Of a stretch of DNA of 64,000 nt, positions 33,008 to 58,174 are shown in pieces. A program made the translations under genes and the position numbers. The DNA is from Umezawaea tangerina (GTDB lineage Bacteria; Actinomycetota; Actinomycetes; Mycobacteriales; Pseudonocardiaceae): assembly GCF_003002815.1 (NCBI RefSeq), contig NZ_PVTF01000005.1, forward strand, positions 1 through 64,000. Direction: 5' to 3'. Within the stretch, counting starts at the first letter, position 1, and every line of letters starts with the position of its first letter. The notes under the pieces are model-generated. The model had not been told where the DNA came from, did not search any database, and saw nothing but the letters and a program-made list of their open reading frames with translations.

Positions 33008-33187
33008 TCAACGACCGCGGTAGTGGGTGACCAGGCCGACGATGCAGGCGACCGTCAGCAGACCGAAGGGGATGCTGACGGCGACGCCCAGGCCCAGCAG
33101 CGACGCGGCCGCGTTGCAGAGGCCGCCCACGACGAGCGTCGTCCAGAGGAGAACCGGGTGTTTGCGCGAGGTCTTGGTGTTCGTCAT
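33008..33187 (-). CDS. Small two-helix membrane protein
   Basis: 59 aa from the ATG at 33187. A basic start (MTNTKTSRKHPVLLW) is followed by two membrane segments (~13-35 and ~38-54). It lies 71 bases after the class II diterpene cyclase in the same direction, so it may be the last gene of the diterpenoid operon. No function is assigned. Confidence 0.65.
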   Translation of the reverse strand: MTNTKTSRKHPVLLWTTLVVGGLCNAAASLLGLGVAVSIPFGLLTVACIVGLVTHYRGR

Positions 33188-33258
33188 GGCCCAAACGCTA
33201 GTGATCGGACGCCGCTCCGCTGAGCCCCTCAACACCCGGATCGCCGGTGGAGCAGGCT

Positions 33259-34794
33259 CTACCACGCCCGGCCGGGCAGCTCGGGAGGACCGCCGAACCG
33301 CCTGGTCACGTGGCCGAGGGCCATGAGCGCGAAGACGTCGGCCAGCAGCGGCACGTGGAAGATGAAGGGCCGCGGGCCGATGGAGTCGCTGACGGAGGGG
33401 ATGCTCCCGTCCTCCTGCTGGTGCCGCAGCAGGAACCGGACCCCTTCGGCCGCGGGGCGCGGGTCGTCCTGCGCGCACAGGGCCATGACGGCGTAGGAGG
33501 TGCTGATCGGGTCGCTGGGGCTGTCGGCGCGCTGGCCCCAGCCGCCGTCGTCGTTCTGGCCGCCGAGCACGAAGTCCAACCCCCGCGCGGCGATCCGGCC
33601 CGCGGGTCCGTCCGGGATCCGGGACGCCATCAGCACGGCCCGGAAGACGGTGTGCAGCAGGCTGCTGCTCCAGTCCGGCGGGAAGGTGCCGTCCGCCAGC
33701 TGCTCGTCGGCCAGGAAGGACAACCCGTCCGCGAGGACCTGCCGGTGCTGCGTGCGGTCGTAGGTGAAGGCGTCGAGCGCGGCGACCGTCATGCACGCCT
33801 CGGGCGCGGAGTCCCGGACGTAGGTGGGGAAACCGCCCCGCGGATGCCGCACGGCCAGCAGCGACGCCAGTCCGCGCTTGACCGCCTGGTCGCTCGCGTT
33901 CCCGGTGCGGGACTGGAGGAACTGCAGGGCGACCGAGGTGTCGTCCACGTCCGTCTGCAGCGCGACGTCGGTGACCGACCAGCCGCCGCCCGGCAGCTGG
34001 CTCCGGACTAGGCGCGCGGCGATCCGGTCCAGCACCGGCTCCGGGGCACCGGCCGCCGCCAGTGCGACCCCGGCGGTCACCGTGCACCACGTGTCGGTGT
34101 CGGTGACGAACGGGACGCCGCCGTCGGACCGCACGTGCCGCAGGGCCTTGCGGATCCCGTCCGCGACCACGGTCTCGGTGCCGGGCAACCGTTGCAGGGC
34201 GTGCAGGGTGAACAGGTGGATGAGCAGGTTGCCCTCCCAGACCTCGGGCGAGCGCTGGGTGGCCAGCAGGACGTGGGCGTCCTCGTCGGCGAGCGAGCCG
34301 GTCAGGACGCCCTTCAACGCCGTGACCTGGACCTGCGCCCAGGAGTGCAGACCGTCGCGGCGCAGGACGTCCCGGTAGGCCCGGTCGGCGGCGGCGGACT
34401 CGCCGAGCACCGCGAACACCCCGTCCAGCAGGGCGCGCTTGCGCGGACCGGTGAAGTCGGGGCACTTGGCGACCACGCTCGCGCGCAGCTCACCGGTGGG
34501 CCCTCCGCCCCGGGACAGGGCGGCCTGGGCGATGGCCAGGTCGAACGGTTCGGTGCCCGTGGGAAGGGAGCGCAGGTAGCGGGTCTGCCGGTCGAACGGC
34601 TGCCCGGTGCTCTGCAGCAGGCGCAGCAGGAGGGCGGTCTCCAGCGGACGGCCGTGGCAGGGGAACCGGACCGCGCCATCGGGGTCCACGTGCGAGGCGA
34701 CGTACCGGGACAGCCGGGCCGTCGCGTCCCCGAGCGAGTCTGGAACTGACGACGACGGCCACGGTTCGCCGCCGTGGTGGGAAAGGGGGCGCAT
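33259..34794 (-). CDS. Class II diterpene cyclase (DxDD type, copalyl-diphosphate-synthase-like)
   Basis: 511 aa, the normal size of bacterial class II diterpene cyclases. The diagnostic DVDD motif is at residues 282-285 (TDVDDTSVALQFLQ); its middle Asp protonates the prenyl double bond. QW-like helical repeats are visible (GGGWSVTDVALQ, GGFPTYVRDS, DGTFPPDWSS, DGGWGQRADSPSDPISTSYAVMAL). No class I DDxxD motif is present, as expected. It should cyclise geranylgeranyl diphosphate to a copalyl-type diphosphate for the class I synthase encoded two genes upstream. A GGPP synthase is not in the window. Confidence 0.88.
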   Translation of the reverse strand: MRPLSHHGGEPWPSSSVPDSLGDATARLSRYVASHVDPDGAVRFPCHGRPLETALLLRLLQSTGQPFDRQTRYLRSLPTGTEPFDLAIAQAALSRGGGPTGELRASVVAKCPDFTGPRKRALLDGVFAVLGESAAADRAYRDVLRRDGLHSWAQVQVTALKGVLTGSLADEDAHVLLATQRSPEVWEGNLLIHLFTLHALQRLPGTETVVADGIRKALRHVRSDGGVPFVTDTDTWCTVTAGVALAAAGAPEPVLDRIAARLVRSQLPGGGWSVTDVALQTDVDDTSVALQFLQSRTGNASDQAVKRGLASLLAVRHPRGGFPTYVRDSAPEACMTVAALDAFTYDRTQHRQVLADGLSFLADEQLADGTFPPDWSSSLLHTVFRAVLMASRIPDGPAGRIAARGLDFVLGGQNDDGGWGQRADSPSDPISTSYAVMALCAQDDPRPAAEGVRFLLRHQQEDGSIPSVSDSIGPRPFIFHVPLLADVFALMALGHVTRRFGGPPELPGRAW

Positions 34795-34839
34795 GGCGGA
34801 CCTCGCTGGGTGCTCGGGTGGGGCGCGACGGGTGCTGGT

Positions 34840-36180
34840 TCAGGGGCGGCGGCGGACGACGACCGGCATCCGTTCCGGCCGCAGCGTGACGACCGCCTTC
34901 GGCCGGACGGCCCGCGACGAGGCGGGCACGACCCGCCAGTGCGGGAGCAGGCTCGCGAGGATCGTCATGACCTCGGTGACCCCGAAGGCCTCGCCGACGC
35001 ACCGGTGCACTCCGGCGCCGAACGGGCAGTAGGCGCCGCGGGGCAGTGCGCCCCGCCGTTCCGGCAGCCACCGGTCGGGGTCGAACCGCTCGGGGTCCGG
35101 GTACCAGCGGGGATCCCGGTGCAGCGCGTAGGGGCTGTAGTACACCGAGGCGCCGACGGGTATGTCCCGGCCGCCGAGGCTCAGGGGTGCCGTGGCCCGG
35201 CGGCGGACCAGCCACACCGGCGGGAACAGCCGCAGGGCCTCGCTGACGACGCGGCGCAGGCGCTCCAGCTCCGGGAGGTCGTCGGCTTCGACCGGTCGGC
35301 CTCGCAGGACGTCCTCGACCTCCTGGCGCACCAGGGCTTCGCTGTCCGGGTTCAGGCCCAGCAGGTGCAAGACCCAGCACACCGTGGTCGCGGTCGTCTC
35401 GACCCCGGCCACCAGCATCGTCATGATCTCGTCGTGGATCTGCCGGTCGTCCAGCCCCGGCACCCCTTGCGCCTGGGCGTCCCGGAGCCTGCCCAGCAGG
35501 TCGGTACCGGCACCGGCGGGCCGTTCGGGCTGGTGCGCGCCCAGCGCGTCGGCGATCGCGTGCAGCCGGCCGAGCGCGGCGGTGTAGCGCCTGCGAGCGG
35601 GGGTCGGCAGCTTCGTCACGAGCTTGACCGGGGCGAGCGCGATCCGGGAGGCGATGTCGAGGCACGTGGGCAGCGCCGCGGACACGTCGTCCGCCATGCC
35701 CTCGGGCGACCGCACGCCGAAGAGGCTCGTGAGCACCCCGGTGGTGGCGACGACCAGCATCTGCCGGACGAGGTCGACCGTCCCGCCGTCCCGCCACCGC
35801 GCGGCCTGCGCTTCCGCCGCCTGCCGCAGGAGCGGGACGTAGGAGGCGACCTGCTCGTGGTGGAACACCGGTTGCACCAGCCGCCGTTGCCGCCGGTGGA
35901 ACTCGCCGTCGGAGCTGCCCAGCCCGTTGCCCGTCAACGCGCGGGTCTTGTCCCCCGTCGTGCCGCGACCGACCTGGCCGGAGAGCTCCGTAAGCAGGCT
36001 CCAGACCAGATCGGGGTCGTTGACCAGGTAGGCGGGGTGGCCGCGCAGCAGGAAGGGCGCCACCGCGCCCGCGGTCCGCTGCCGCTCCAGGAACTCCAGC
36101 GGACGCCACCGCAGCCACGGGAGGTGACCGAGCACCGGCAGGGCGGCGGGAAGTGCTGGGTGCGTAGTGGAGCCCGGCAT
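34840..36180 (-). CDS. Cytochrome P450, terpenoid-oxidase type
   Basis: 446 aa from the ATG at 36180. I-helix AGVETTATTVCW, K-helix EALR in VVSEALRLFPPVW, PERFDPDRW, and the heme loop PFGAGVHRCVGEAFG with Cys394. The long form and 'FPP...RR' pattern resemble actinomycete P450s that oxidise terpenes (PtlI/CYP183-like) rather than CYP105/107 enzymes. It lies 8 bases after the terpene synthase in the same operon. It shares length and layout with the P450 at 37127-38491 (heme Cys also residue 394), suggesting an old duplication. No redox partner is nearby. Confidence 0.92.
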   Translation of the reverse strand: MPGSTTHPALPAALPVLGHLPWLRWRPLEFLERQRTAGAVAPFLLRGHPAYLVNDPDLVWSLLTELSGQVGRGTTGDKTRALTGNGLGSSDGEFHRRQRRLVQPVFHHEQVASYVPLLRQAAEAQAARWRDGGTVDLVRQMLVVATTGVLTSLFGVRSPEGMADDVSAALPTCLDIASRIALAPVKLVTKLPTPARRRYTAALGRLHAIADALGAHQPERPAGAGTDLLGRLRDAQAQGVPGLDDRQIHDEIMTMLVAGVETTATTVCWVLHLLGLNPDSEALVRQEVEDVLRGRPVEADDLPELERLRRVVSEALRLFPPVWLVRRRATAPLSLGGRDIPVGASVYYSPYALHRDPRWYPDPERFDPDRWLPERRGALPRGAYCPFGAGVHRCVGEAFGVTEVMTILASLLPHWRVVPASSRAVRPKAVVTLRPERMPVVVRRRP

Positions 36181-36188: not shown

Positions 36189-37130
36189 CTACCCGCGCGG
36201 GAGCACTTGGTAGCGGGCCGGGCTCGTGATCACGAACCAGTCGTACTGCCCGCGCATCCAGTACCCCATTCCCGTGACGCAGCGCAGCACGCCCGACCTG
36301 TCCCGTTCGCTGAGGGAGGCGAACTCCTTGGTGCGCGGCAGTTCTGCCACCAGCGCCACGAACTCCCGCGCCTTCGCGTTGGTCATGTCGACCGCGCGGG
36401 CGAGGGCGTCGTGCTCGGGCAGGTCGGCGTGCCGGACGAGCACGTCGACGAGGTTGAACCGGCTCCCCGAGCGCCGTTCCTTCCGGTAGGAGTAGATGTC
36501 GTTGGTCCACGTCAGCACATCGGCGCACGCGTCGTGGAGTCCGCGCCACGCGGCGGAGCCCCGGAACTCCTCGGGCAGATCGGTCCGCGCGACGACCTCG
36601 ACGAGGTGGATGGTCGGCTTGGCCGCGCCCTCCTCCCTGCGCAGCACCAGGAACTCCGCCGGCTCCGGGAGGTCGTCCGCGGTCGACGTCCCCGCGAACC
36701 GGATCGCGTGGCGCAGGTAGGAGTCGAAGTCCCGCCGGAACCTCTCGCCCCAACCGGGGCTCATGCGCGCCGTGACGTCCTCGCGGAACCCGTCCATCCC
36801 GGCGGTGACCGCACGCGGCAACCCGGTGGCCGCCAGGTCCGCGGGAGCGCCCGTGGTGCTCCCCGCGAAGACGTCCTCGCAGAGGTCGTCCAGCGGGAAC
36901 AGCCACAGCAGCCACTCGGCGACCGGCCCGATCGTGTCGGCCTCGGCCTGGGGTGACGTGCGGCAGATCAGGTCGACCATGACGTCGTCGCCCTGCACGA
37001 AGTGCCCCAGCCCGGCGGCCTCCAAGCGCTCGCGAACCTCGCGGGCCCGGTGCCGGACCAGGCTTTCCGGCTCGTAGCGACCGGCGTCGAAGGGCAGGAC
37101 GAGCGTCGGGGTGCCCTGGGCGGCGGTCAT
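36189..37130 (-). CDS. Class I terpene synthase
   Basis: 313 aa. The aspartate-rich metal motif is D81-D82-L-C-E85 in FPLDDLCEDVF. The NSE triad is N210-D-I-Y-S214-Y-R-K-E218, and the C-terminal RY pair is R306-Y307. All three hallmarks of bacterial type I terpene synthases are intact. The start codon overlaps the stop of the upstream P450 (ATGA). Together with the DxDD cyclase it forms the class II plus class I set for a labdane-derived diterpene skeleton. If it acted alone it could use farnesyl or geranylgeranyl diphosphate. Confidence 0.9.
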   Translation of the reverse strand: MTAAQGTPTLVLPFDAGRYEPESLVRHRAREVRERLEAAGLGHFVQGDDVMVDLICRTSPQAEADTIGPVAEWLLWLFPLDDLCEDVFAGSTTGAPADLAATGLPRAVTAGMDGFREDVTARMSPGWGERFRRDFDSYLRHAIRFAGTSTADDLPEPAEFLVLRREEGAAKPTIHLVEVVARTDLPEEFRGSAAWRGLHDACADVLTWTNDIYSYRKERRSGSRFNLVDVLVRHADLPEHDALARAVDMTNAKAREFVALVAELPRTKEFASLSERDRSGVLRCVTGMGYWMRGQYDWFVITSPARYQVLPRG

Positions 37131-38491
37131 CCGGTCTGCTCACGGGCGTCGGCGGCCGGTCGCCGAGGGATCATCGGCATCCGGTTCGGGTGCACGGTCC
37201 CGGTCGCCACCTCGCGGATCCGTTGCCCGGCAACGGGTTCGAGCCGCCAGTGGGAGCAGATCACGGCGAGGGTCGTGGTGAGGCCCACCAGTGCCATCTT
37301 CTTCCCGATGCACACGTGCGCGCCCGCGCCGAAGGGGAGGTAGCAGCCCTTGGTGGCCGCGCCGTGGCCCGTGGGCGACCACCGGTCGGGGTCGAACCGC
37401 CGTGGTTGCGGGAACCAACGCGGGTCGTGGTGGAGCAGGTGCGGGCTGTAGACGATCTCGGCCCCGGCGGGGAGCTCGACCTCGCCCAGGCGCACCGGTT
37501 TCAGCGTCCGGCGCATGATGAACGGGACGGGGTAGCGCCGCAGGGTCTCGCTGACCACGTTGTTCAGGTAGGTCAGGGAGGACACGTCGGCGGCGGCGGG
37601 CGCGCGCCCCGCCAGGACGGTCGCCAGCTCCTCGCGCACCCGGCGGGCGATGTCCGGGTTCCGGAAGATCTCGTACAGCGCCCAGCTCAGCACCGCGGCG
37701 GTGGACTCGCTCCCGGCCACCAGCATCGTCATGACGTGGTCCCGGACCTGCCGACCGGACAGCCCGTGCCCGTGGTCGTCCTGCGCCGCGAGGAGCGACC
37801 CCAGGAGGTCGCCGTGCGCGTCCTCGCCGCGCGCACGCCGCGCGGAGATGATGGTGCCGACGACGCCGTCCAGGCTCCGCATGGCCTTCTTGAAGCGGAA
37901 GTTCCCGACCGTCGGCATCCGCTCCAGTCCGCTGGGCAGGATCGTGCGGAAGAGGACGCTCTTGAACAGCGCGGGCATGTGGAGCCGGAGACTTTCCAGG
38001 TTCGCCGCGGTGAGGTCGGTGGAGAAGAGGCTCTGCGCGGTGTTGGTCAGCGCCAGGTCCTTCATCTGCTCGTCCACCGCGAGCACCTCGTCCGCCGTCC
38101 AGGACTCGACGAGCGCCGTCGTGGAGTCGCGGACGTGGTCGACGTGGGACGCGACCTGCTCGTTGGTGAACGCCGACCTCAGGGACCTGCGCTGCTGCTG
38201 GTGGGCGGTGCCGTAGGACGTGAGCAGGGAGTCCCCGAACCACGCGCTCGCCTTGGTCATCAGCCTGCCGCGGTCGTAGTCCCGGTCGCCGGGCACCAGC
38301 AGCTGGTGGGCCACGGCGGGGTCGGTGACGACGTAGGCGGGGATCGGCCCGAGCCGGACCTCGACGACCTGGCCGACCGACGGCAACGAGGACAGGAACT
38401 CCAGGCGCCTGGCGATGAGCGCGGGCGCGTGGCCCACGACGGGCCACCGGCCCGGCGCACCCGCTGCTCCGACCGGACTCGGGCTTCTCAT
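37127..38491 (-). CDS. Cytochrome P450, terpenoid-oxidase type, first gene of the diterpenoid operon
   Basis: 454 aa from the ATG at 38491, with GGGGG upstream; in-frame codons further upstream encode an unlikely proline/glycine tail. I-helix AGSESTAAVLSW, K-helix ETLRRYP, PRRFDPDRW, and heme loop PFGAGAHVCIGKKMA with Cys394. The N-terminus GRWPVVGHAPALIARRLEFLSSLPSVGQVVEV is typical of the family. It heads the operon P450-terpene synthase-P450-cyclase. The promoter region is shared with the AraC gene. Confidence 0.92.
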   Translation of the reverse strand: MRSPSPVGAAGAPGRWPVVGHAPALIARRLEFLSSLPSVGQVVEVRLGPIPAYVVTDPAVAHQLLVPGDRDYDRGRLMTKASAWFGDSLLTSYGTAHQQQRRSLRSAFTNEQVASHVDHVRDSTTALVESWTADEVLAVDEQMKDLALTNTAQSLFSTDLTAANLESLRLHMPALFKSVLFRTILPSGLERMPTVGNFRFKKAMRSLDGVVGTIISARRARGEDAHGDLLGSLLAAQDDHGHGLSGRQVRDHVMTMLVAGSESTAAVLSWALYEIFRNPDIARRVREELATVLAGRAPAAADVSSLTYLNNVVSETLRRYPVPFIMRRTLKPVRLGEVELPAGAEIVYSPHLLHHDPRWFPQPRRFDPDRWSPTGHGAATKGCYLPFGAGAHVCIGKKMALVGLTTTLAVICSHWRLEPVAGQRIREVATGTVHPNRMPMIPRRPAADAREQTG

Positions 38492-38536
38492 CGGCGGACC
38501 CCCAGGTTGTGCGCGACCGCGTCGCGCGCCGGTTGT

Positions 38537-38546
38537 CGAATATTCG
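38537..38546. promoter_or_regulatory. Palindrome CGAATATTCG in the diterpenoid promoter region
   Basis: A perfect 10-base AT-rich palindrome 46 bases upstream of the first P450 start, in the 233-base spacer shared with the AraC gene. It may overlap the minus-strand promoter. Confidence 0.4.
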
Positions 38547-38660
38547 CCACCATCGGGCACGCCGGGATCGCGTATGCCCGGTGGAGCGGTTTCCTATCGT
38601 CGGGCGGTGAACCGTGGTGGTGCCTCCCGTCGAGGCTAGGGAGGCAGGCGCGGCACGCGG

Positions 38661-38695
38661 TTGAACCACAGCGACATCCGGATTGAACATCGGCG
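38661..38695. promoter_or_regulatory. AraC-type direct repeat TTGAACNNCRGCG
   Basis: TTGAACCACAGCG (38661-38673) and TTGAACATCGGCG (38683-38695) are direct repeats 22 bases apart, that is two helical turns. This is the geometry of AraC-family half-sites. They lie between the AraC gene and the divergent diterpenoid operon. Confidence 0.6.
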
Positions 38696-38724
38696 CCACA
38701 ATCCCGCGAGGTGGACGAGCAGCG

Positions 38725-39702
38725 ATGGACAGCACTGGATCACGGGCGGAAGGGACGTTCTCGGTGGACTCCACCGTCCGCGGGGCGTCCGCCCGCGGCT
38801 TCGCCGCCTTCCGCCGCGAGTGGGAGTCGCAGCTCGGCGGGGGCTTCCGGATGCCCGCCTTCAGCCCCGCCACGACCGGTGACTTCCGGGTCAGGAGCTG
38901 CGGCACCAGGATGCGGGACGTGGCGATCATCAACCTCCACGGCGTGTCGGCCGTGGAGGCCGCGGGATCCTCGCACTGCGCCGAGGACCTGGTGCGGATG
39001 CACGTGGTGCGACGCGGGACGTTGCGGGTCGGCGAGGTGCGCGAGCACGCCGACGGCACCGTGTCGGCGGGCCGGTTCCTCATCCGCTTCTTCAAGCGCG
39101 CGCCGCGCTACGAGCTCGTGCGGCACACCACGGTCAAGTTCCTCTTCCTGCCCGCCTCGACGCTTACCCCGCTGCTCGGGAACCGGATGATCAGCGGGTC
39201 GACCGACTCGGCCGAGATGCGCCTGCTGCTGGCCCACACGAACCTGGTCCACGAGAACGCCTCCGACCTCGGCCCGGCCGGCGTGCAGGCCGCCCGCGAC
39301 GCCCTGGTCGAACTGGTCAAGGCGGTGGCCCTGCGCCAGTTCGACGACGTCGAACCGCTGCTCGCACCCGCGCTCGCCCTGGCCGCGAAGGAGCTCGCGG
39401 ACACCCACCTCACCGAACCCGGCCTGTCCACCGCGATGCTGGCCCGCGAGCTCAACGTCTCGATGCGCACCCTGCAACGGGCTTTCGCCGCGACCGGCGA
39501 ACCCGTCACCACCTACATCCGCCGCAGACGCCTGGAACAAGCCCGGCTCGCCCTCACCTCCCCCACCGGCCCACCCGACATCTCCGACCTCGCCGCCCGC
39601 TGGCAGTTCGCCGACAGCAGCCACTTCATCCGCACCTTCAAGAAGCACTACGGCCAAACCCCCACCGAGTACACCCGCTCGACCAGAACGGCCGACCGCT
39701 GA
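38725..39702 (+). CDS. AraC-family transcriptional regulator
   Basis: 325 aa from the ATG at 38725. The N-terminal ~200 residues match the AraC-binding-like/NitR-type sensor domain (MRDVAIINLHGVSAVEA...). The C-terminal ~100 residues are the double helix-turn-helix with LSTAMLARELNVSMRTLQRAFAATGEPVTTYIRRRRLEQAR and the ISDLAARWQFADSSHFIRTFKKHYGQTPTEYTRS signature. It is divergent from the diterpenoid operon and convergent, 6 bases apart, with dpgD. It is the natural candidate to control the diterpenoid genes. Confidence 0.93.
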   Translation: MDSTGSRAEGTFSVDSTVRGASARGFAAFRREWESQLGGGFRMPAFSPATTGDFRVRSCGTRMRDVAIINLHGVSAVEAAGSSHCAEDLVRMHVVRRGTLRVGEVREHADGTVSAGRFLIRFFKRAPRYELVRHTTVKFLFLPASTLTPLLGNRMISGSTDSAEMRLLLAHTNLVHENASDLGPAGVQAARDALVELVKAVALRQFDDVEPLLAPALALAAKELADTHLTEPGLSTAMLARELNVSMRTLQRAFAATGEPVTTYIRRRRLEQARLALTSPTGPPDISDLAARWQFADSSHFIRTFKKHYGQTPTEYTRSTRTADR

Positions 39703-39708: not shown

Positions 39709-40503
39709 TCAGCGGCCCTGCCAGCGCGGCTGCCTGCCTTCGGCGAAAGCGCGGGGGCCTTCGGCGGCGTCCGCGCTGCGCGTGCGCCGTTCCTCCCACA
39801 CGTACCGGGTCGCGAAGGCCTGAGGTAGGGGCAGGGTGGCGGAGGTGGCGGCGGCTTCCTTGGCGGCGCGGACGGCCAGTGGGGCGCAGCGGAGGATGTC
39901 GGTCACCCAGCCGTCCACTGTGGAGTCGAGCTCGTCGGCGGGGACGACCTCGTTGACCAGGCCCAGGTGCCAGGCGCGGTCGGCGGTGAGGTCGCGGCCG
40001 GTGATGAGGTGGCCCAGGGCGGTGCGGAACGGGAGTTGGCGGGTGAGGCGGAAGACGCCGCCCGCGCCGGCGACCAGGCCCAGCCTGGCTTCCGGCAGGC
40101 CGAAGCGGGAGCCTTCGGCGGCGATGATGACGTCGCACGCCAGGGCGAGCTCGAAGCCGCCGCCGAGCGCGTAGCCGTTCACCTTCGCCACAACGGGTTT
40201 GGCCAGGGCGAAGCGTTCGGTCAGGCGTGGCCAGCCGGGTTGTCCCCGGCTGCCGAACGTGGCCGGGGCCGCGGTGCCGTTCGCGTTGCGCTCGGCCAGC
40301 TCCTTGAGGTCCTGGCCGACGGAGAACGCGCGGTCGCCCGCGCCGCTGAGCACCGCGACCCAGAGGTCGTCGTCGCGCTCGAACTCGTCCCAGGCCGTCG
40401 CCAGCTCCTCGTGCATCCGCAGGTTCATCGCGTTCAGCACGGCCGGGCGGTTCAGGGTCACGTGGGCGACCCGTCCACGCCGCTGGAAGTCCACAGTGGA
40501 CAT
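39709..40503 (-). CDS. dpgD: DpgD-like enoyl-CoA hydratase/isomerase
   Basis: 264 aa from the ATG at 40503. A crotonase fold: oxyanion-hole [14 protein letters not shown] and [25 protein letters not shown], then [20 protein letters not shown]. In glycopeptide producers DpgD, with DpgB, assists DpgA in forming 3,5-dihydroxyphenylacetyl-CoA from the tetraketide. Assignment as DpgD rather than an unrelated crotonase rests on its place as last gene of the dpgA-B-C operon. Confidence 0.88.
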
Positions 40504-40522: not shown

Positions 40523-41947
40523 TCAGAACTGCGACGGGACGGCGGCGAACCGCACGGTCGACCACTGCCACTGGGTGAACTCGTGCCAGCTCTGCCCGAA
40601 GCCGTGCCTGCTGCCGTTGCCGGAGGCACCCCGCCCGCCGAACGGCACGAAGGCGTTGTCGTCGACGGTGTGGCCGTTGACGTGCACGATGCCGGTGGCG
40701 AGTCGTCGGGCCAGCGCGAGCCCGCGTTCGGCCGAGCCGGTCTGCACCGCGGCGACCAGCCCGTAGGAGGTGCGGTTGGCCAGGGTGACGGCTTCGTCCT
40801 CGTCCTCGGCCACGATCACCGGTGCGACCGGTCCGAAGATCTCCTCGGTGAACGCGGGCATGTCGGCGGTGACGTCGGCGAGCACCGTCGGGCGGTAGTA
40901 CAGGCCGTGGTGGGTGCCTCCGGTGAGCAGCCGCGCACCGGCCGCCGCGGTGTCCCGGACGATCCGGTCCACCCGTGCCAGCTGCGCCCGGTCGATCAGG
41001 GGGCCGAGGGCCACGTCCTCGCGCCACGGGTCGCCGGTCGTCAGCGCCCGCGCCCGTGCGGTGAGGCGGGCCAGGTACTCCTCCGCCACGTCGCGCAGGA
41101 CGATGTGGCGCCCGGCCGCCATGCAGATCTGCCCCTGGTGGAAGAACGAACCGGTCGCGCCCGCCGAGCTCGCCAGGTCGAGGTCCGCGTCGTCGAGCAC
41201 GATGATGGCGTTGTTGCCGCCCAGCTCCAGCGACACGCGCTTGAGGGCGCGCCCGGTGACCGCGCCGATCTCCACGCCGACGTCGGTCGAACCGGTGAAC
41301 GCGATCATGGCGATGTCCGGGTGGCCGGTGAGCGCGCGACCCACCCGCGCGTCCCCGGCGACGACGTTGAGCACCCCGGCCGGGAGTCCGGCGTGCTCGA
41401 AGAGCGCGGCGAGCACCCGGCCGCCCGCGACGTGGGTGTGCGGGTCGGGTTTGAGCACGACGGCGTTGCCCAGGGCGATCGCGGGAGCGACGGCGCGCAT
41501 GCCCAGCAGCAGCGGGACGTTCCACGGGCTGATCACGCCGACCACCCCGAGCGGCAGCCTGCGCCCGATGCTGTGCCTGCCGTCGGGGTCCGGCAGCAGC
41601 TCGCCGTGGGGCTGGGCGGGCAGCGCCGCGGCGCTCCAGAGCTCGTCGAGCACGGAGGCGACCTCGTGCCGCGCCTTGGCGCGCACGGATCCGCTCTCGC
41701 GGACCAGCCATTCGACCACCTCGTCGGTGTGCTCCTCCAGCACGCGGGCGGTCCGCCGCAGCACGGCGGCGCGCTCCATCGGGGACGTGGCGGCCCAACC
41801 CGGTTGTGCCGCAACGGCTTCGTCGACCGCCGCGTGCACGGCCGCGGTGTCGGAGAGCACCACGTGGTCGAGCACGTCGCCGGTGGCGGGCTCGACGACC
41901 TCCCTGGTACCCGGTCCGGGTGGGGTCGGGGCGAACAGGCGGTTCAT
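40523..41947 (-). CDS. Aromatic aldehyde dehydrogenase (benzaldehyde dehydrogenase-like)
   Basis: 474 aa, the ALDH superfamily. Catalytic Cys275 is in [13 protein letters not shown] and the general-base Glu in [49 protein letters not shown] and FTGSTDVG bind NAD(P). The sequence resembles benzaldehyde/vanillin dehydrogenases. Its ATG overlaps the stop of the ThDP decarboxylase gene, so the two enzymes are coupled. The expected reaction is 3,5-dihydroxybenzaldehyde to 3,5-dihydroxybenzoate, inferred from the operon. Confidence 0.92.
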
Positions 41948-45589: not shown

Positions 45590-45623
45590 GTCCCCCACCA
45601 CCTTCCGCTCAGTCGTCACCGGA

Positions 45624-49368: not shown

Positions 49369-49552
49369 TTGTTCCCTCGCTTTCTGCGGAGTCGTCACGC
49401 TAACCGGCGCCGATAAGCGCGGCCAGCGCGTTCGGAACGGTTGTTCGACCAGAGGCATATCCCTTTTCCGCCGTTGCCATTAGGCTCGCTCGACGAAAAG
49501 GAATCGGGTTTCCCCCGGTCGTCACCGGAAATGTCCCAACCGGAGGCAGTCG

Positions 49553-51319: not shown

Positions 51320-53151
51320 TCCGCTCCACCCGCCGGTGGTCGGCGTTCGCCGGGACCATGTGGCGCGCGAGCCCGTGGCGGTGCGCCGCGGTGCTGCTCA
51401 CGCTGGCGATCGACGTCGTCGGCCAGCCCGCGTTCGCGGTGCTGCTGGCCGGTTTCACCGACGCGGCGCTGCGGGGCGACCCCGCGGGTGCCGGTGTCCA
51501 CGCCGTGCTCGCCGCCTCGGCGTGGGCGGCGGTCAGCCAGAGCCGCGGCGTCCGCAACCAGCTGCGCAACGACGTCCGCGACCGGGTCGGGCACCTGGTC
51601 ACCGAGGACGTCATGCGCCTGACCGCGACCGAGCCGCGCGTCGACCACCTCGAGGACCCGCGCACGCTCGACCAGGTCGACCGCGTCTCGGCCAAGGGGT
51701 ACACGATCGCGGACACCGTCTGGGCCGCGCTCGAGGTCGCCGCGATCAGCCTGACGGTCGCCCTGACCCTGGTCGTCATGTCGACCGTCTCCCCCGCGCT
51801 GCTGCTGGTGCTCCCGGTCATCCTGATCACGTTGTGGCTCAACAAGGTCGGCCAGGACGGCGTCCGGCGCGCGGTGGAGACCGCGGACGAGCCCCTGCGG
51901 GTCGGCGCGAACCTGCTGCGGCTCACGCACGACCCCCGTGTGGCGGGCGAGCTGCGGGTGACCGGCGCGGGTGGCGCGGTGCTCGACGAGCACGAGCGCC
52001 AGTGGGCGACCGCCTCGCGCGTCCTGGACCGGGCCGAGGCCCGCGCCGGTGTCCTGCTCGCGGCGGGCTGGCTGGTGTACGTGCTCGCGATCGGCGCGGG
52101 TCTGGTCTGGGCGGCGACGCAGATCGACAGCGGCCGGGTGGGGGCGGGCGACCTGGTCATGATCCTGGCGATCGCCCGCCAGCAGCAGCTCTCGGTGCAG
52201 ATGGCCGTGAACGGGTTCAGCAGGATGTCCGAGGGCGTCGTCACCGCGGCGGCCTACGACGAGGTGCGGGCGACCGTGGCGCCGACGGCGCGGCAGGCCG
52301 CCGGGGAGCACGACGGGATCGGCGGCCGACTGCACCGGGGCATCGCCCTGCGCGACCTCTCCTTCACCTATCCGGGCACCTCACGGCCCGTCCTCGCGAA
52401 CCTGGACCTGGAGCTGCCCGCCGGCACCATGGTCGCCCTGGTCGGCGCGCACGGATCCGGCAAGACGTCCGTGATCAAGCTCCTGACCGGGATGCACGCG
52501 CCGACGTCGGGACGGATCGAGGTCGACGGCCGACCGCTCGACACGATGGCTCCCGAGGCATGGCGGGCGCGCGTCGCCGCGGGGTTCCAGGACTTCGTGC
52601 GGTTGCAGGCACTCGCGCGCGAGTCGGTGGGCGTGGGCGACCTGACGGCCGTCGACGACCTGCCGCGCGTCGAGGGCGCGGTCCGCGACGCGGGCGCCGA
52701 GGACGTGGTGGCCGCGCTGCCGGAAGGCCTGCGCACCCAGCTGGGCACGACGTTCGGGGGCGTGGACCTGTCCGGCGGCCAGTGGCAGAAGGTCGCCCTC
52801 GCCCGCGGCCACATGCGGCAGGACCCGCTGCTCGTCGTGCTCGACGAACCGACGGCGGCACTGGACCCGTTGAGCGAGTCCGAGGTCTACACCAGGCAGC
52901 TGTCCTACGCCCGCGCGATGGCGCGCAGGTCCGGGACGGTGACCGTGGTGGTGTCGCACCGGTTCTCCACGGTGCGGATGGCGGACCTGATCATCGTGCT
53001 CGACCGGGGCGCGGTCGTCGAACAGGGCGACCACGACCACCTCATGGCGGCCGGCGGCACGTACGCCCGGCTCTACACCTTGCAGCGCGACTCCTACGTC
53101 GGACCGGCGTCCGACGCGACAGGACGGGCAGTGATGAACGATGAGCACTGA
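51316..53151 (+). CDS. ABC exporter half-transporter, second subunit
   Basis: 611 aa. A membrane domain (~1-330) and an ATPase domain with Walker A GAHGSGKTSVI, GFQDFVRLQALARESV, signature DLSGGQWQKVALARG, Walker B VVLDEPTAALDP and VSHRF. Its layout matches the preceding gene, and the two start/stop codons overlap, so they likely form a heterodimer. Its end overlaps the start of the condensation-domain gene by 11 bases, tying transport to biosynthesis in one transcript. Confidence 0.92.
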   Translation: MIRSTRRWSAFAGTMWRASPWRCAAVLLTLAIDVVGQPAFAVLLAGFTDAALRGDPAGAGVHAVLAASAWAAVSQSRGVRNQLRNDVRDRVGHLVTEDVMRLTATEPRVDHLEDPRTLDQVDRVSAKGYTIADTVWAALEVAAISLTVALTLVVMSTVSPALLLVLPVILITLWLNKVGQDGVRRAVETADEPLRVGANLLRLTHDPRVAGELRVTGAGGAVLDEHERQWATASRVLDRAEARAGVLLAAGWLVYVLAIGAGLVWAATQIDSGRVGAGDLVMILAIARQQQLSVQMAVNGFSRMSEGVVTAAAYDEVRATVAPTARQAAGEHDGIGGRLHRGIALRDLSFTYPGTSRPVLANLDLELPAGTMVALVGAHGSGKTSVIKLLTGMHAPTSGRIEVDGRPLDTMAPEAWRARVAAGFQDFVRLQALARESVGVGDLTAVDDLPRVEGAVRDAGAEDVVAALPEGLRTQLGTTFGGVDLSGGQWQKVALARGHMRQDPLLVVLDEPTAALDPLSESEVYTRQLSYARAMARRSGTVTVVVSHRFSTVRMADLIIVLDRGAVVEQGDHDHLMAAGGTYARLYTLQRDSYVGPASDATGRAVMNDEH

Positions 53152-54526
53152 AGTCCGCACGGCGGGCGCCGTCTTCCACGGCTCCCGGTCCATCACCGCT
53201 CCCCCCACCTGGGCGCAGCAGGCGATGTGGAACACGATCGGCCGGATGCGGCCGAACGACGCCTTCCTCAACGCCAAGTTCGCGCTGGCGGTGCCGGAGG
53301 GCCGCACGGTGGACGACGTCTGCCGGGCCGTCGGCGAGGCCGCCGCGGCGCACGAGGCCCTGCGGACCAGGTACCCGGAGTCGGCCGACGGGCACATCAC
53401 CCAGGTGGTCGAGCGGTCGGGCGAGCTCCCCGTCACCGTGCGCGCCTCCGACGCGACGCCGGTGCTGACCGTGCTGGACGACCTGGCGGAGCGGGCCTTC
53501 GACCACGCGGCCGACTGGCCGGTCCGGTTCGCGGTGCTGGTCGACGACGGCACGCCGACCCACCTGCTGTTCGTCGGCTCGCACCTGTCGTTCGACGGCA
53601 TCGGCAAGAACCTGCTCCACGAGGACCTGGCGGCGCGGCTGGCGGGCGAACGACCGCGGGCCGACCGGACCCCTCCGATGACGGCCGCGGACCTCGCGAT
53701 CGACGAGCAGTCACCCGCGGCGCAGGCCCGCAACGCCGCCGCGGTCGCCCGCTGGCACCGCCTGGTGGACACCCACGACGTCGTGCACTTCCCCTTGGCG
53801 CTGCACGACTCCGACATCGACCCCCGGTGGCTGGTGAGCAGCATGTCGGCGCCGGTGGTGGCGCCCGCCGTCGAGCTCATCGCCCGGCGCTGCCGCGTCA
53901 CCACCCCAGCGGTGTTCATGGCCGCGACGGCCGTGCTGGTCTCGGCGCTGTCCGGCAGACCTACGGTCGTGCTCAAGAACATGATCTCCAACCGCTTCAC
54001 CGACGCCGAGAAGGCGTTCGTCGGCACCATCTCCCAGTCCTGCGCGACGGTCGTGCACGTGGGCGGGTCCACGTTCGACGAGGTCGTGACCCGGACCATG
54101 ACGGCGAGCGTGCGCGGCTACTCGATGGGCCGCTACCGGCTCGCGGACATCTACGACGTGGCACCGCCGCAGCTGTTCGACTGCTTCCACAACGACCTGC
54201 GCGACGTCGACCGGCGCGGACCGGGCGAGCCCCCCAGGGTCGAGGAGGTGACGGCGTTGCGGGAGGTGTCCTCCGCGGTGCCCGCGCTCCGGCTCCCGTT
54301 GCACGGCAGCAAGTTCTACCTCGAGGTCCGCGACGGCGCCGACGGCCCCGAGTCGGTGCTGATCGTGGACCGCCGCCACCTGGCGCTGGCCGAGCCGGAG
54401 CGGCTGCTCCTCGCGCTGGCCGCGTTCCTCGCCAACCGCGCGACCTCCCCCGCGGTCGGCGGGGCGGTGGGGCAGCTCCTCGAATGCCTTGTCCGCACAC
54501 CGATCCGCCTCGACGGCCGCACCTGA
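53141..54526 (+). CDS. Stand-alone condensation-domain-like acyltransferase
   Basis: 461 aa, the size of a single NRPS condensation domain. Residues 147-153 read SHLSFDG in place of the classic HHxxxDG: the catalytic second His (H148) and Asp-Gly (152-153) are kept and the first His is Ser. N-terminal TWAQQAMWNTIGR and the later FLANRATSPAVGG region fit the two-lobed fold. Such free-standing members transfer acyl groups from carrier proteins to amines or alcohols. It is encoded between the exporter and the P450-ACP, so that ACP is its likely donor. Confidence 0.85.
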   Translation: MSTEVRTAGAVFHGSRSITAPPTWAQQAMWNTIGRMRPNDAFLNAKFALAVPEGRTVDDVCRAVGEAAAAHEALRTRYPESADGHITQVVERSGELPVTVRASDATPVLTVLDDLAERAFDHAADWPVRFAVLVDDGTPTHLLFVGSHLSFDGIGKNLLHEDLAARLAGERPRADRTPPMTAADLAIDEQSPAAQARNAAAVARWHRLVDTHDVVHFPLALHDSDIDPRWLVSSMSAPVVAPAVELIARRCRVTTPAVFMAATAVLVSALSGRPTVVLKNMISNRFTDAEKAFVGTISQSCATVVHVGGSTFDEVVTRTMTASVRGYSMGRYRLADIYDVAPPQLFDCFHNDLRDVDRRGPGEPPRVEEVTALREVSSAVPALRLPLHGSKFYLEVRDGADGPESVLIVDRRHLALAEPERLLLALAAFLANRATSPAVGGAVGQLLECLVRTPIRLDGRT

Positions 54527-54548
54527 GCCCCCGGAAGGAGTCCGCGCC

Positions 54549-56006
54549 GTGCTGGACCCGGACCTGATCGACCTGCGCGAGTTCGGCGAGAGGTACTACG
54601 ACGACCCCCACTCGGTCTACCGGGAGCTGCGCGACCGCGGACCGGTGCACCGGGCGCTCCTGCCGGACGGGAGGACCGCGTGGTTGGTGCTGGGGTACAA
54701 GGAGGTCCGCGACGCGCTCGCCGATCCCGGTCTGAGCAACGACGTCGCCCGGTCGCGTCGGGAACGGGGACGCGACACCTCCGGCGCGCACCTGCTGCTC
54801 AGCGATCCGCCGCGGCACACGCGGCTGCGGAAGCTGGTGGCCAAGCACTTCACCCCGCGCCGGGTCGAGCTGCTGCGCCCGAGGATCGAGCAGATCGTCG
54901 ACGGCCTGCTGGACGACGTGGAGCGCGCGGGCGCGGTCGACCTCGTGGAGTCGTTCGCGCTGCCCCTGCCCGTCACGGTGATGACCGGGATCCTCGGTGT
55001 CCACGACCTCGACCCGACGCGGTTCCGCGCGTGGACGAACGCGATCGTCGTCTCCGACGGCGGCAGCGCCGAGGCGCGGGAAGCGCTTGCCGCCATGCAC
55101 GAGTACCTCGCGGGGCTCTTGGCCGCCAAGGAGCACGACAAGGGAGACGGGCTGCTCGACGAGCTGATCGAGGCGCGGCGCGACGACCCCACCGCGCTGA
55201 GCGCGGCCGAGCTGCTGTCCATGACGTTCTTCCTGCTGGTGGCCGGGCACGAGACGACGGTGAACCTCATCGCGAACGCCGTGCACCTGCTGTTGACCAA
55301 CCCCGCCCAGCTGGCCCGCGTTCGCGACGACCCCGACCTCGTCGCCGGGGTCGTCGAGGAGGCGCTGCGCCACGAGGCTCCGCTCAAGCTCGCCGCGGAG
55401 CGGTTCACCACCGCGGGCATCACCATCGGCGACACCGCCGTGCCCGGCGACGGCGAGACCGTGCTGCTCGGGTTGGCCGCCGCGGGACGCGACCCCGACC
55501 GGTACACCGACCCGGCCGCGTTCGACGTGACGCGCTCGGCGGGCGGCAACCTGGCCTTCGGGTCGGGCCTGCACCGCTGCCTCGGGGCGCCGCTGGCCGC
55601 GATCGAGGCGCGGATCGCGATCGGGGCGCTCCTGCGCCGGTTCCCCGACCTGCGGCCCGACGGCGCTCCGACCTGGTGGCGCAGCTCGGTCACCAGGGGG
55701 CTGAAGAACCTGCCGGTCCGCGTGTCAGTGGAGAGGACGTACATGGTTGACGATCGCAAGTCCGTGGTGCGGGAGCTGTCGGAGCGCGTCACGCTGTTGA
55801 TGCCCGAGCTGCGCGAGGTCGCGTTCGACGAGACCAGCGACCTGCGCGACTTCGCCGGGTTCGACTCGCTGGTGATCCTCCAGCTGCTCACGCACGCCGA
55901 GGAGGTGTTCGGCGTCTCCCTGATGGAGGACGACGTCGCGATCGACAGCGCCTCCTCGGTCGGCAGGCTCGCCGAGCACATCGTCGGGAACCGCCAAGCG
56001 CTCTAG
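54549..56006 (+). CDS. Cytochrome P450 fused to an acyl carrier protein
   Basis: 485 aa from a GTG at 54549, 8 bases after GGAAGGAG. Residues ~1-392 are a complete bacterial P450: I-helix VAGHETTVNL, ExxR in EEALRHE, heme loop FGSGLHRCLGAPLA with Cys344, and the family's normal ending RGLKNLPVRV. Residues ~399-485 are a carrier protein with phosphopantetheine Ser440 in FAGFDSLVILQLL. The P450 would act on a substrate held by its own ACP. An in-frame ATG with a good ribosome site at the junction (55743) suggests that the ACP is also made alone. Confidence 0.92.
   Translation: MLDPDLIDLREFGERYYDDPHSVYRELRDRGPVHRALLPDGRTAWLVLGYKEVRDALADPGLSNDVARSRRERGRDTSGAHLLLSDPPRHTRLRKLVAKHFTPRRVELLRPRIEQIVDGLLDDVERAGAVDLVESFALPLPVTVMTGILGVHDLDPTRFRAWTNAIVVSDGGSAEAREALAAMHEYLAGLLAAKEHDKGDGLLDELIEARRDDPTALSAAELLSMTFFLLVAGHETTVNLIANAVHLLLTNPAQLARVRDDPDLVAGVVEEALRHEAPLKLAAERFTTAGITIGDTAVPGDGETVLLGLAAAGRDPDRYTDPAAFDVTRSAGGNLAFGSGLHRCLGAPLAAIEARIAIGALLRRFPDLRPDGAPTWWRSSVTRGLKNLPVRVSVERTYMVDDRKSVVRELSERVTLLMPELREVAFDETSDLRDFAGFDSLVILQLLTHAEEVFGVSLMEDDVAIDSASSVGRLAEHIVGNRQAL
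55743..56006 (+). other. Internal translation start for a free 87-aa ACP inside the P450-ACP gene
   Basis: ATG at 55743 is in frame and is preceded by GGAGAGG with a 6-base gap. The resulting 87-aa protein (MVDDRKSVVRELSERV...) has the normal length and start of a discrete acyl carrier protein. It begins six codons after the natural end of the P450. The ancestral state was probably two genes whose stop codon was lost, with the ribosome site retained. Confidence 0.6.
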
Positions 56007-56057: not shown

Positions 56058-56241
56058 GAGGTCTCCGGTAGACGGGTTGGCGACCAAGCAAACCCCCACC
56101 ACCGGAGACCTCGTGGCCGGCCTAATCAAGCAGCACCGGGCGGTGGCCACTCGCTACGACGAGCTCGCGGTCCGTTTCCTGGCCACAGTTCAGGTCGCGG
56201 CCATCACCATCTGGCTGCGCCACATGTGGAACACGCCCTAG
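56058..56241 (+). mobile_element. Internally deleted IS5-type insertion sequence remnant
   Basis: A 12-base inverted repeat (GAGGTCTCCGGT 56058-56069, ACCGGAGACCTC 56101-56112) precedes a GTG at 56113. The 42-codon frame that follows joins the first residues of a transposase to its C-terminus (IKQHRAVATRYDELAVRFL then VQVAAITIWL) and ends at 56241. The middle of the transposase is missing and no right terminal repeat is seen. It lies 50-230 bases after the P450-ACP stop. Confidence 0.65.
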
Positions 56242-56255
56242 CCGTCCACCTCGTC

Positions 56256-56843
56256 TCAGCCGGTGCGCCCGCGTTCGAGGCCGACCCCGCCATCGTCGTC
56301 GACGGCGGCGTACAGCAGGGAGTCGCGCCATGAGCCGCGGACGAACAGGTGGCTGCGCATCCTGCCCTCGAACCGCAGGCCGACCTTCTCCAGCACACGG
56401 GCCGAGGCGTGGTTGTCCGGGTGGCACGTCGCGCTGACGCGGCGCAGGCGCAGGTGGTCGAACCCGAACCGCAGCAGCAGCGCGCCCGTCTCGGTGGCGT
56501 ACCCCCGCGACCAGAACCCGCGGTGGAACACGAAACCGAACTCGCCCTGCCGGTGTCGGGCGCTGGTGACGCCGATCGCCACCGAACCGATCAGCTCGCC
56601 CGAGTCCGCCAGCGTCGCCGCCAGCGCGAAGTGGGTCCGTCCGGGAGTGGTCACCTGGGAGGTGGCCTCCGCCAGGAACGCGCGGGTGTCGTCGAGGCTG
56701 TTGGGGCCGAAGTCGGTGTACCGGGTGACCAACGGGTCCGCGGCGAAGGAGTGCACCGCGTCGAGGTCCGTGTCGGCGAACTCGCGCAGGACCAGTCGGT
56801 CACCGACCAGCCGGATGTCGGTCGGCCGTAGTGGTGAAGTCAT
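56256..56843 (-). CDS. GNAT-family N-acetyltransferase (RimJ/RimL-like)
   Basis: 195 aa from the ATG at 56843, with GAGGAGG 6 bases upstream. TDIRLVGDRLVLREFADTDLDAVHSFAADPLVTRYTDF is the RimJ-type start. Acetyl-CoA is bound at HRGFWSRGYATETGALLLRFGFDHLRLRRVSATCHPDNHASARVLEKVGLRFEG. It could acetylate a protein N-terminus or the cluster product. It sits inside the cluster border between the IS remnant and the StrR-type gene, so a link is possible but not shown. Confidence 0.92.
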   Translation of the reverse strand: MTSPLRPTDIRLVGDRLVLREFADTDLDAVHSFAADPLVTRYTDFGPNSLDDTRAFLAEATSQVTTPGRTHFALAATLADSGELIGSVAIGVTSARHRQGEFGFVFHRGFWSRGYATETGALLLRFGFDHLRLRRVSATCHPDNHASARVLEKVGLRFEGRMRSHLFVRGSWRDSLLYAAVDDDGGVGLERGRTG

Positions 56844-57148
56844 CGGGTCCTCCTCACCTGCGGTAGCCGGAGTGCTGCGACGTGCCCGGAACAACCGAGG
56901 AGGCGAGTGTCGCGCAACTGCGACGAGCCCCGCCACCGGTTATCCACTGTGGAGCCCCGACCTGCTTCGGGGTCTGTACCGGGGTTGTACCGGTTCCGCG
57001 AAACCTGGTCGGCGCCGCTGCCTTGACGAGGAGGTTCACGGATGGGGAAACGCTTGCTGGGGGCGAGCCTTGCGGATGTGGTGCCCGGGTCGTCGGAGGA
57101 TCCACGTCCTGGCGCCTGCCGGCGGAAACGGGTTTCGGAGCGTTGAGC
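56844..57148. promoter_or_regulatory. Divergent promoter region with an 11-base tandem repeat
   Basis: 305 bases without a gene between the acetyltransferase and the StrR-type gene. TGTACCGG occurs at 56975-56982 and 56986-56993, exactly 11 bases apart, next to a small CCCCGA/TCGGGG hairpin (56955-56972). No StrR-type 9-N11-9 site is seen here, so autoregulation by that motif is not supported. Confidence 0.4.
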
Positions 57149-58174
57149 GTGTCGTTGTCCGATGGCGATGAGGCGCTGTCGCCCTGGCTGGCACATCAGT
57201 CCGGGGTGCGGCCGGTGGAGTCGGTGCCGGTCAAGGTGTTGCGGTCGGCGGACTCGCCGCGCACGGCGGGAGAGGACGCGAACCACGTGTACGCGTTGGC
57301 GGAGGTCGACGCGCCGTTGCCGCCGATCATCGTCTACCGGCCCACCATGCGCGTCGTCGACGGGATGCACCGCCTCCGCGCGGCCCTGCTGCGGGCTCGC
57401 GAAGAGATCGAGGTGCAGTTCTTCGACGGCACCGAGGACGACGCGTTCGTGCTGGCGGTCGAGGCGAACACCAGGAACGGCCTGCCCTTGTCGCTGGCCG
57501 ACCGGAGGGTCGCCGCGGCGCGCATCATGTCCACGCACCCGCACCGGTCGGACCGGTGGACCGCACAGGTCAGCGGACTGTCGGCGAACACGGTCGGCGC
57601 GATGCGGAAGTACTCGAACCCCGGAGGCGACGGGCCGACCGCCAGGGTCGGCCGGGACGGGCGGGTGCGTCCGCTCGACAGCTCGGACGGGCGGCGGATC
57701 GCGGGTGAGCTGATGCGGGCCAATCCGGGACGGTCTTTGCGGGACATCGCGCGGGTGGCGGGCATAGCGCCGTCGACCGCGCTCGACGTGCGCAGGCGGT
57801 TGCAGTCCGGCGCCGATCCGGCGGTGACGCGGCGCAAGGCCACCGAGGCGGAAACCGGTCCGGTGTCGGCCGGAACACCGCAGCCGCAACGGGAGGTGAA
57901 TCCCGAGGAGATCCTACGACGGCTGCGGAACGACCCGTCGCTGCGGTTCACCGAGGCCGGGAAGTCGTTGCTCCGGTGGCTGGGCGCGCACACCGTCGAG
58001 GACGGCTTGGCGGCACTGCCCCTCGACGCGATCCCGACGCACTGCATCGGCACGGTGGCCGACCTGGCCCAGTACAACGCCGGGTCGTGGGCGAGGTTGA
58101 GCGAGCAGCTCGCCGCACTCCGGACCGATCGGCGCACGACCGATGACGCCCCGCGGACCGGGGAGCGGGCCTGA
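57149..58174 (+). CDS. StrR-family (ParB-like) pathway-specific transcriptional activator
   Basis: 341 aa from a GTG at 57149, 8 bases after CGGAG. The ParB/Srx-like N-terminal domain has the StrR-type sequence run VKVLRSADSPRTAGEDANHV, LPPIIVYRPTMRVVDGMHRLRAALLR, IEVQFFDGTEDDAFVLAVEANTRNGLPLSLADRRVAAARI. A helix-turn-helix follows (VSGLSANTVGAMRK), and a second near GRSLRDIARVAGIAPSTALDVRRRL. StrR and its relatives Bbr, Tei15 and Dbv4 activate antibiotic genes, including dpg genes. A matching operator lies before dpgA. Flanked by IS remnants on both sides. Confidence 0.93.
   Translation: MSLSDGDEALSPWLAHQSGVRPVESVPVKVLRSADSPRTAGEDANHVYALAEVDAPLPPIIVYRPTMRVVDGMHRLRAALLRAREEIEVQFFDGTEDDAFVLAVEANTRNGLPLSLADRRVAAARIMSTHPHRSDRWTAQVSGLSANTVGAMRKYSNPGGDGPTARVGRDGRVRPLDSSDGRRIAGELMRANPGRSLRDIARVAGIAPSTALDVRRRLQSGADPAVTRRKATEAETGPVSAGTPQPQREVNPEEILRRLRNDPSLRFTEAGKSLLRWLGAHTVEDGLAALPLDAIPTHCIGTVADLAQYNAGSWARLSEQLAALRTDRRTTDDAPRTGERA

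Follow-up and report, generated by a model that had tools for sequence, protein, structure and literature searches.

A terpene cassette and an aryl coupling cluster side by side in Umezawaea tangerina are probably two pathways

We analysed the terpene and aryl-acid genes at 33259-58174 of a 64-kb stretch of DNA from Umezawaea tangerina, a member of the Pseudonocardiaceae (bases 1-64000 of contig C5 in a genome of 10.68 Mb; hereafter the window). These genes probably belong to two neighbouring pathways: a terpene cassette (33259-39702) that would be controlled by an AraC-family regulator, and an aryl coupling cluster (39709-58174) that would be controlled by a StrR-like regulator. A sequence-only reading of the same DNA had proposed one composite cluster instead, in which a stand-alone condensation domain (C domain) joins an aryl unit to an oxidised diterpene. 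Such a joining was not borne out and is disfavoured by the occurrence of the two halves apart from each other in relatives.

The terpene half is found on its own. The gene order class II cyclase, P450a, class I cyclase, P450b is kept in G383, from the same genus, and in G214, from another genus, at 68-84% identity. We compared 60 kb around these two cassettes (20-60 kb across all seven cyclase loci, the other five having more distant cyclases); the contig of G383 ends about 10 kb from its cassette. None of the seven loci contains a match above 80 bits to the Dpg proteins, the thiamine diphosphate (ThDP) enzyme, the aldehyde dehydrogenase, the ligase, the C domain or the StrR-like regulator. 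Cyclase matches occur in 15 other genomes, of which these loci represent 7; the remaining eight match at 38% or less. The whole G214 genome has no dpgA at E 1e-100, while 46 of the 390 genomes in our family-level comparison set have one. The G214 cassette is also broken (around 16067-17321 of locus L022, in a single-contig genome): the class I match ends at residue 250 and the P450a match starts at residue 287, leaving a class I gene without its end and a P450a without about its first two thirds.

The C domain of the aryl half is likewise found without terpene genes. Five relatives at 41-44% identity occur in the 390 family genomes and one more in Streptomyces sp. SBT349. The six loci belong to Amycolatopsis azurea (G091 in the set), A. 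kentuckyensis (G107), Amycolatopsis sp. CA-128772, Saccharothrix obliqua, Streptomyces sp. SBT349 and the Pseudonocardia plasmid pBCI1-1 (the set also includes a Pseudonocardia as G296). Some are cut by contig ends (two of the six begin or end at a contig edge) or by 20-kb stretches. None has a terpene or dpg match above 80 bits. A class II 3-deoxy-D-arabino-heptulosonate 7-phosphate (DAHP) synthase of the 3-amino-5-hydroxybenzoate (AHBA) type is present in five, a chorismatase in four, a glycosyltransferase in four and AHBA-synthase-type genes in two. A StrR-like relative (40-46%) and a carrier protein each occur in five loci, ligase relatives (40-49%) and a P450 each in three, and the ABC pair in SBT349, at 41% identity for each half-transporter.

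A third comparison started from dpgA, with about 10 kb on each side of 27 of its 49 places other than our own. The terpene cassette was absent from all 27 (matches above 80 bits). The full set of six dpg, ThDP and aldehyde dehydrogenase genes was present in one neighbourhood (L092, genome G225) and all but DpgB in another (L081, genome G061), and an aldehyde dehydrogenase at 61-69% identity occurred in 7 of the 27. A search for clusters sharing both cyclases and this acid-supply set had been suggested as a check; none of the 7 terpene, 6 C-domain or 27 dpgA loci contains both halves. At the level of gene neighbourhoods the two halves are thus independent in relatives, which is what the sequence-only reading had named as evidence against itself, although the exact combination of dpg genes and C domain has no counterpart among them.

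Several observations weigh against two separate pathways. The halves meet at 39702/39709, where the AraC gene and dpgD stand tail to tail, and the 6 bases between them are their sole separation. Weak superfamily matches of 60-67 bits do lie near some cyclases, to an enoyl-CoA hydratase in the case of G383 and to AMP ligases in those of G097 and G086, and these three genomes do carry dpgA, on another contig or 2.3 Mb off. No relative was found with both the dpg genes and this C domain, so that the independence of the aryl half rests on relatives at 41-43%, which have other acid-supply genes. Moreover, the ligase and the P450 accompany just half of the related C domains and the ABC pair just one. 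Genes for a second aryl acid and for glycosyltransferases, present in relatives, are also missing from the window; no acceptor is evident, and the terpene could serve as one. On the regulatory side, a degenerate StrR-like site with 4 mismatches lies in the P450b/AraC promoter (equalled by 6 of 200 shuffles, and by 10 of 300 and 1 of 300 in further tests), and in SBT349 the box identical to the published StrR consensus sits inside the StrR-like gene match and not in a promoter.

The first alternative is a single pathway in which the C domain would esterify a terpene hydroxyl, made by a P450, with carrier-bound 3,5-dihydroxybenzoate (3,5-DHBA) to give an aryl-ester meroterpenoid. Such a pathway would agree with the direct adjacency of the halves, with the two terpene P450s as providers of hydroxyls, with the weak StrR-like site in the terpene promoter and with an aryl half that has no other acceptor gene, the relatives' chorismatase and glycosyltransferases being absent. 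It is hard to reconcile with a terpene operon lacking the aryl half in both close relatives (one without a dpgA match genome-wide), with a C domain lacking terpene genes at all six loci and with separate regulators, one to either side of the seam, whose relatives in other genomes accompany the respective half. We consider it unlikely, and keep a terpene acceptor in view because the aryl cluster is without its relatives' partner-acid and glycosyltransferase genes and no acceptor is evident. Equally doubtful is a fusion of the halves in this strain into a new meroterpenoid pathway, with an oxidised drimane-type (C15) terpene from the two-cyclase cassette esterified from the P450-fused carrier by a C domain that derives from AHBA-type clusters and now receives 3,5-DHBA made by the dpg genes. 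If true, this would be a bacterial resorcylate ester of a terpene made by tethering of the nonribosomal peptide synthetase (NRPS) type.

The regulators argue for two neighbouring pathways. The AraC gene adjoins the cassette in G214 (71% identity) and lies about 10 kb from it in G383 (50%), and StrR-like genes accompany most of the related C domains as described above. The StrR-like protein itself has weak, below-cut-off helix-turn-helix matches in Pfam and none in NCBIfam; against PHROG its best match is a family of unassigned function (1.2e-8), followed by a ParB-like family (1.4e-6). We take StrR proteins to be ParB-like.

We then searched for the published StrR site, GTTCGACTG-N11-CAGTCGAAC, as given in PMC8306873 and PMC8406272. 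The window contains one site within 3 mismatches of this consensus, at 46945, in the intergenic region between dpgA and the aldo/keto reductase gene (0.19 expected per window; at least one in 17 of 100 shuffles). The site at 46945-46973 is perfect to a purine/pyrimidine form of the consensus, a form chosen after the site had been seen, and none of 200 intergenic shuffles came closer than 4 mismatches. Two perfect StrR-type sites are present in the SBT349 locus (L099, 8744-8772 and 18927-18955), one of them about 0.4 kb upstream of the chorismatase match. Both A. azurea and CA-128772 have sites with 3-4 mismatches between genes beside the StrR-like gene, and CA-128772 has such a match ahead of its AHBA synthase-type gene too. 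The intergenic regions between the ligase and the first transporter and between the GNAT and StrR-like genes of the window have no StrR-type site (best 6 and 7 mismatches). A balhimycin-type box, GTCCA-N17-TTGGAC, gave no match. StrR control of the terpene promoter was rejected as a candidate: its site has 4 mismatches, and one half-site is common, by eye, to the promoter in G214, which lacks the aryl half. What regulatory evidence there is would thus put the seam at 39702/39709, as does the comparison of neighbourhoods. A terminator at the seam was considered and rejected: a hairpin is present (39696-39715), the stretch folds no better than shuffled sequences (z -0.71), and no terminator-like site was found there. 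A strong inverted repeat with 11-base arms (58193-58220) stands right after the StrR-like gene and may represent its terminator and the cluster's right edge.

The terpene product had been labelled a diterpene, and this label was not supported. The closest solved sequences to the class II cyclase include 7xqz/7xra (phmmer E 3e-66), of which 7XRA corresponds to SsDMS, an enzyme that makes drimenyl diphosphate (C15; PMC13244436). In profile comparison 7xqz/7xra reach E 6e-90, compared to 1e-4 for PtmT2 (5bp8) and 5e-5 for Tpn2 (7xkx), which are diterpene cyclases (PMC9814783). One solved sequence, 8zg1, counts on the other side: it equals SsDMS in its match to the cyclase, and its product was not found in our literature search. 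Polyprenyl synthetases give 10 matches genome-wide and none on contig C5; geranylgeranyl diphosphate (GGPP) could still come from elsewhere. Because of the similarity to SsDMS, the marginal matches to PtmT2 and Tpn2 and the lack of a prenyl synthase on the contig, a sesquiterpenoid seems at least as likely as a diterpenoid. The class II cyclase would protonate a linear prenyl diphosphate (C15 farnesyl being likelier than C20) to form a bicyclic diphosphate of the drimane type. The class I enzyme may ionise or rearrange this intermediate or act separately on farnesyl diphosphate, and the two cassette P450s would oxidise the product.

The nearest described systems share parts of this cassette. 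SsDMS/CavC and the cav cluster of S. clavuligerus combine a beta-gamma class II cyclase with a DxDD motif, P450s and a class I cyclase nearby (PMC11035983). The similarity is remote, and the genes identified by general profile scans at 26302-58174 include no Nudix hydrolase, unlike that system. The authors of the cav study themselves suspected two adjacent clusters (PMC11035983). The tpn diterpene cluster has two terpene synthases and two P450s as here, together with a GGPP synthase and a ferredoxin (PMC9814783), both of which are absent from our cassette.

For the aryl half, the proposed supply of 3,5-DHBA stood up as a prediction from gene families. All four proteins DpgA, DpgB, DpgC and DpgD exceed their NCBIfam equivalog cut-offs. 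The ThDP enzyme and the aldehyde dehydrogenase lie in the same operon, with genes that overlap or adjoin on one strand; neither exceeds an NCBIfam cut-off among the best 25 matches listed. The same combination of DpgA-D, a benzoylformate-decarboxylase-type ThDP enzyme and a benzaldehyde-type dehydrogenase is described for venemycin (VemA-F; PMC5132015) and kendomycin B (Kmy14-18, 29; PMC8708025), and in the latter, feeding 3,5-DHBA to a type III polyketide synthase (PKS) mutant brought production back (PMC8708025). By this route, DpgA, DpgB and DpgD would make 3,5-dihydroxyphenylacetyl-CoA and DpgC would convert it to the glyoxylate, which the ThDP enzyme would decarboxylate to the aldehyde and the dehydrogenase oxidise to 3,5-DHBA.

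The dpgABCD families are the same as in glycopeptide producers, and together with an NRPS-type C domain and carrier they could be read as making 3,5-dihydroxyphenylglycine (Dpg) or a Dpg-containing peptide. The scanned genes at 33259-58174 include no aminotransferase for 3,5-dihydroxyphenylglyoxylate, which makes dihydroxyphenylglycine unlikely. Furthermore, the ThDP enzyme and aldehyde dehydrogenase fit the venemycin/kendomycin pattern, and there is a single C domain and a single carrier domain. We accordingly give a Dpg product very little probability.

In venemycin and kendomycin the acid goes to a modular PKS whose loading A domain is built in (PMC5132015). The window has no PKS; instead there are a stand-alone ligase, a carrier fused to a P450 and a free C domain. 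The claim that these genes form a machinery for tethering and transfer was upheld, again at the level of gene families. The stand-alone ligase would charge 3,5-DHBA onto the P450-fused carrier domain, and the free C domain would hand the acyl group, with or without oxidation by the P450, to a nucleophile; this could be another 3,5-DHBA, which would give an aryl ester. The ABC pair would export the aryl product. These steps, like the control by either regulator, are predicted from protein families and motifs.

The relatives of the C domain indicate what such a module may handle. The motif SHLSxDG is kept in all six aligned C-domain sequences, including its second histidine, presumably the catalytic one. 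An AlphaFold model of the C domain from the six-row alignment was set aside, its mean pLDDT (predicted local distance difference test) of 47.7 being too poor for fold comparison. A class-wide C-domain alignment search matched 27 of 394 genomes at E 1e-30 (best match other than our own 1e-61, compared to 1e-210 for our own). The A. azurea locus exceeds the model for the AHBA-associated phosphatase (305 bits; cut-off 247) and just misses the FkbO/Hyg5 chorismatase model (322.6 of 325 bits), and the pBCI1-1 record names DAHP synthase, dehydroquinate dehydratase, chorismatase and condensation-domain genes. In SBT349 the ligase, C domain, P450, ABC pair and StrR-like gene are all found together. 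A small gene of its own encodes the carrier in A. azurea, CA-128772, A. kentuckyensis, S. obliqua and SBT349, whereas in the window the carrier is fused to the P450. The relatives have their own DAHP synthase, chorismatase or AHBA-type genes; the 64-kb window has dpg genes in their place and no match at E 1e-6 to DAHP synthase II, dehydroquinase II, AHBA synthase or chorismatase. The simplest reading is that the ligase, carrier and C domain serve for activation and transfer of a meta-substituted benzoate and are re-supplied here with 3,5-DHBA.

The stretch could also be divided further, into a terpene cassette, a 3,5-DHBA supply whose acceptor is found at another genomic location, and a ligase, C domain and carrier working with another acid. 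This division is suggested by the two Pseudonocardiaceae loci with the fullest acid-supply sets (L092 of G225 and L081 of G061), in both of which the dpg, ThDP and dehydrogenase genes adjoin modular PKS proteins. We find it quite improbable: no PKS is present in the stretch, dpgA and the reductase gene have a StrR-type box between them, and the relatives of the C-domain module carry genes for meta-substituted benzoates (AHBA-type, chorismatase) that are absent here, acids which 3,5-DHBA resembles. The ketosynthase-acyltransferase-acyl carrier protein-thioesterase protein of G061 strongly resembles VemH in the account of PMC5132015.

What most deserves reporting is a small cluster family built on a free C domain that travels with meta-substituted benzoate genes. 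The window seems to record a natural switch in acid supply, from AHBA/chorismatase genes in the relatives to dpg genes here. The ligase, carrier, C domain and StrR-like regulator would have been kept through this change, with the P450 now fused to the carrier, and the acyl tolerance of the module enzymes becomes directly testable. The window is also a caution that gene adjacency alone is an insufficient ground for reading one hybrid product. In a literature search of titles and abstract openings, with most subscription journals outside it, we found neither a description of this combination of terpene, dpg and C-domain genes nor a study of the AHBA/chorismatase clusters with a free C domain. 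One member of the family lies on pBCI1-1 (locus L154), a plasmid that is mobilizable and comes from an ant-associated Pseudonocardia. A second condensation-domain gene is found there, 12 kb off, and the plasmid record of a second ant-associated Pseudonocardia also has the C domain.

Gene calls together with Pfam and NCBIfam profile scans recovered each family of the earlier gene list at 33259-58174 (Table 1), and so many family matches within 25 kb exclude a chance effect. While the families stood, one frame and one omission had to be corrected. The frame 33008-34465 is spurious, having no Pfam match and lying over the true class II cyclase gene (a separate open reading frame of 59 residues is called at 33008-33187), and the aldo/keto reductase gene had been overlooked.

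Table 1. Features of the terpene cassette and the aryl coupling cluster in the window
Feature	Position	Strand	Evidence
Class II terpene cyclase (DVDD), SsDMS-like	33259..34794	-	Pfam SQHop_cyclase_C E 7e-18; reads QTDVDDTS
Cytochrome P450 a (terpene half)	34840..36180	-	Pfam p450 8e-68; nearest NCBIfam albaflavenone synthase, below cut-off
Class I terpene synthase	36189..37130	-	Pfam Terpene_syn_C_2 2e-32; DDLCED and NDIYSYRKE
Cytochrome P450 b (terpene half)	37127..38560 (start 38437 or 38560)	-	Pfam p450 1e-65; nearest NCBIfam pentalenene oxygenase, below cut-off
AraC-family regulator, divergent from P450 b	38683..39702 (start 38683 or 38764)	+	Pfam HTH_18
DpgD	39709..40494	-	NCBIfam NF042430, 465 bits (cut-off 400)
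Aldehyde dehydrogenase (predicted aryl aldehyde to 3,5-DHBA)	40523..41947	-	Pfam Aldedh 7e-150
ThDP-dependent aryl-glyoxylate decarboxylase (predicted)	41944..43590	-	Pfam TPP_enzyme N/M/C; NCBIfam benzoylformate decarboxylase best, 419 of 493 bits needed
DpgC dioxygenase	43587..44918	-	NCBIfam NF042432, 597 bits (cut-off 530)
DpgB	44915..45601	-	NCBIfam NF042431, 250 bits (cut-off 140)
DpgA type III PKS	45624..46745	-	NCBIfam NF042429, 625.9 bits (cut-off 425)
StrR-type inverted repeat, dpgA/aldo/keto reductase intergenic region	46945..46973	.	3 mismatches to published StrR consensus
Aldo/keto reductase	47109..47909	+	Pfam Aldo_ket_red 3e-63
Stand-alone AMP ligase	48031..49458 (start 49368 or 49458)	-	Pfam AMP-binding and AMP-binding_C
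ABC half-transporter 1	49583..51319	+	Pfam ABC_tran
ABC half-transporter 2	51316..53151	+	Pfam ABC_tran
Stand-alone condensation domain (SHLSFDG)	53141..54526	+	Pfam Condensation 1.5e-17
P450 fused to carrier domain (peptidyl or acyl carrier protein, PCP/ACP)	54489..56006	+	Pfam p450 and PP-binding
GNAT gene	56256..56843	-	Gene call and profile scan
StrR-like regulator	57149..58174	+	ParB-like PHROG match; relatives at C-domain loci

Finally, we looked at the surroundings of the two gene sets. The flanks are not collinear in G383, where the left flank (lacZ-type gene) matches contig C24 and the right flank (response regulator) contig C7, so that no insertion boundary can be read. The lacZ-type gene (30292-32985; best NCBIfam match exo-beta-1,4-galactosidase, below cut-off) has 86-87% DNA identity in both same-genus genomes, with different content downstream in each, and may mark the left edge of strain-specific DNA. 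Further left, at 26302-29885, lies an operon-like group of an Amidohydro_2 gene, an intradiol ring-cleavage dioxygenase and an FAD monooxygenase, possibly for cleavage of a resorcylate-type ring, about 10 kb from the 3,5-DHBA cluster. G383 and G214, too, have Amidohydro_2 genes (35-46%) at a distance of about 4-5 kb from their terpene cassettes. Between the P450-carrier and GNAT genes, the translation of 56107-56241 resembles, by eye, the tail of an IS5-type transposase and is a possible mobility scar.

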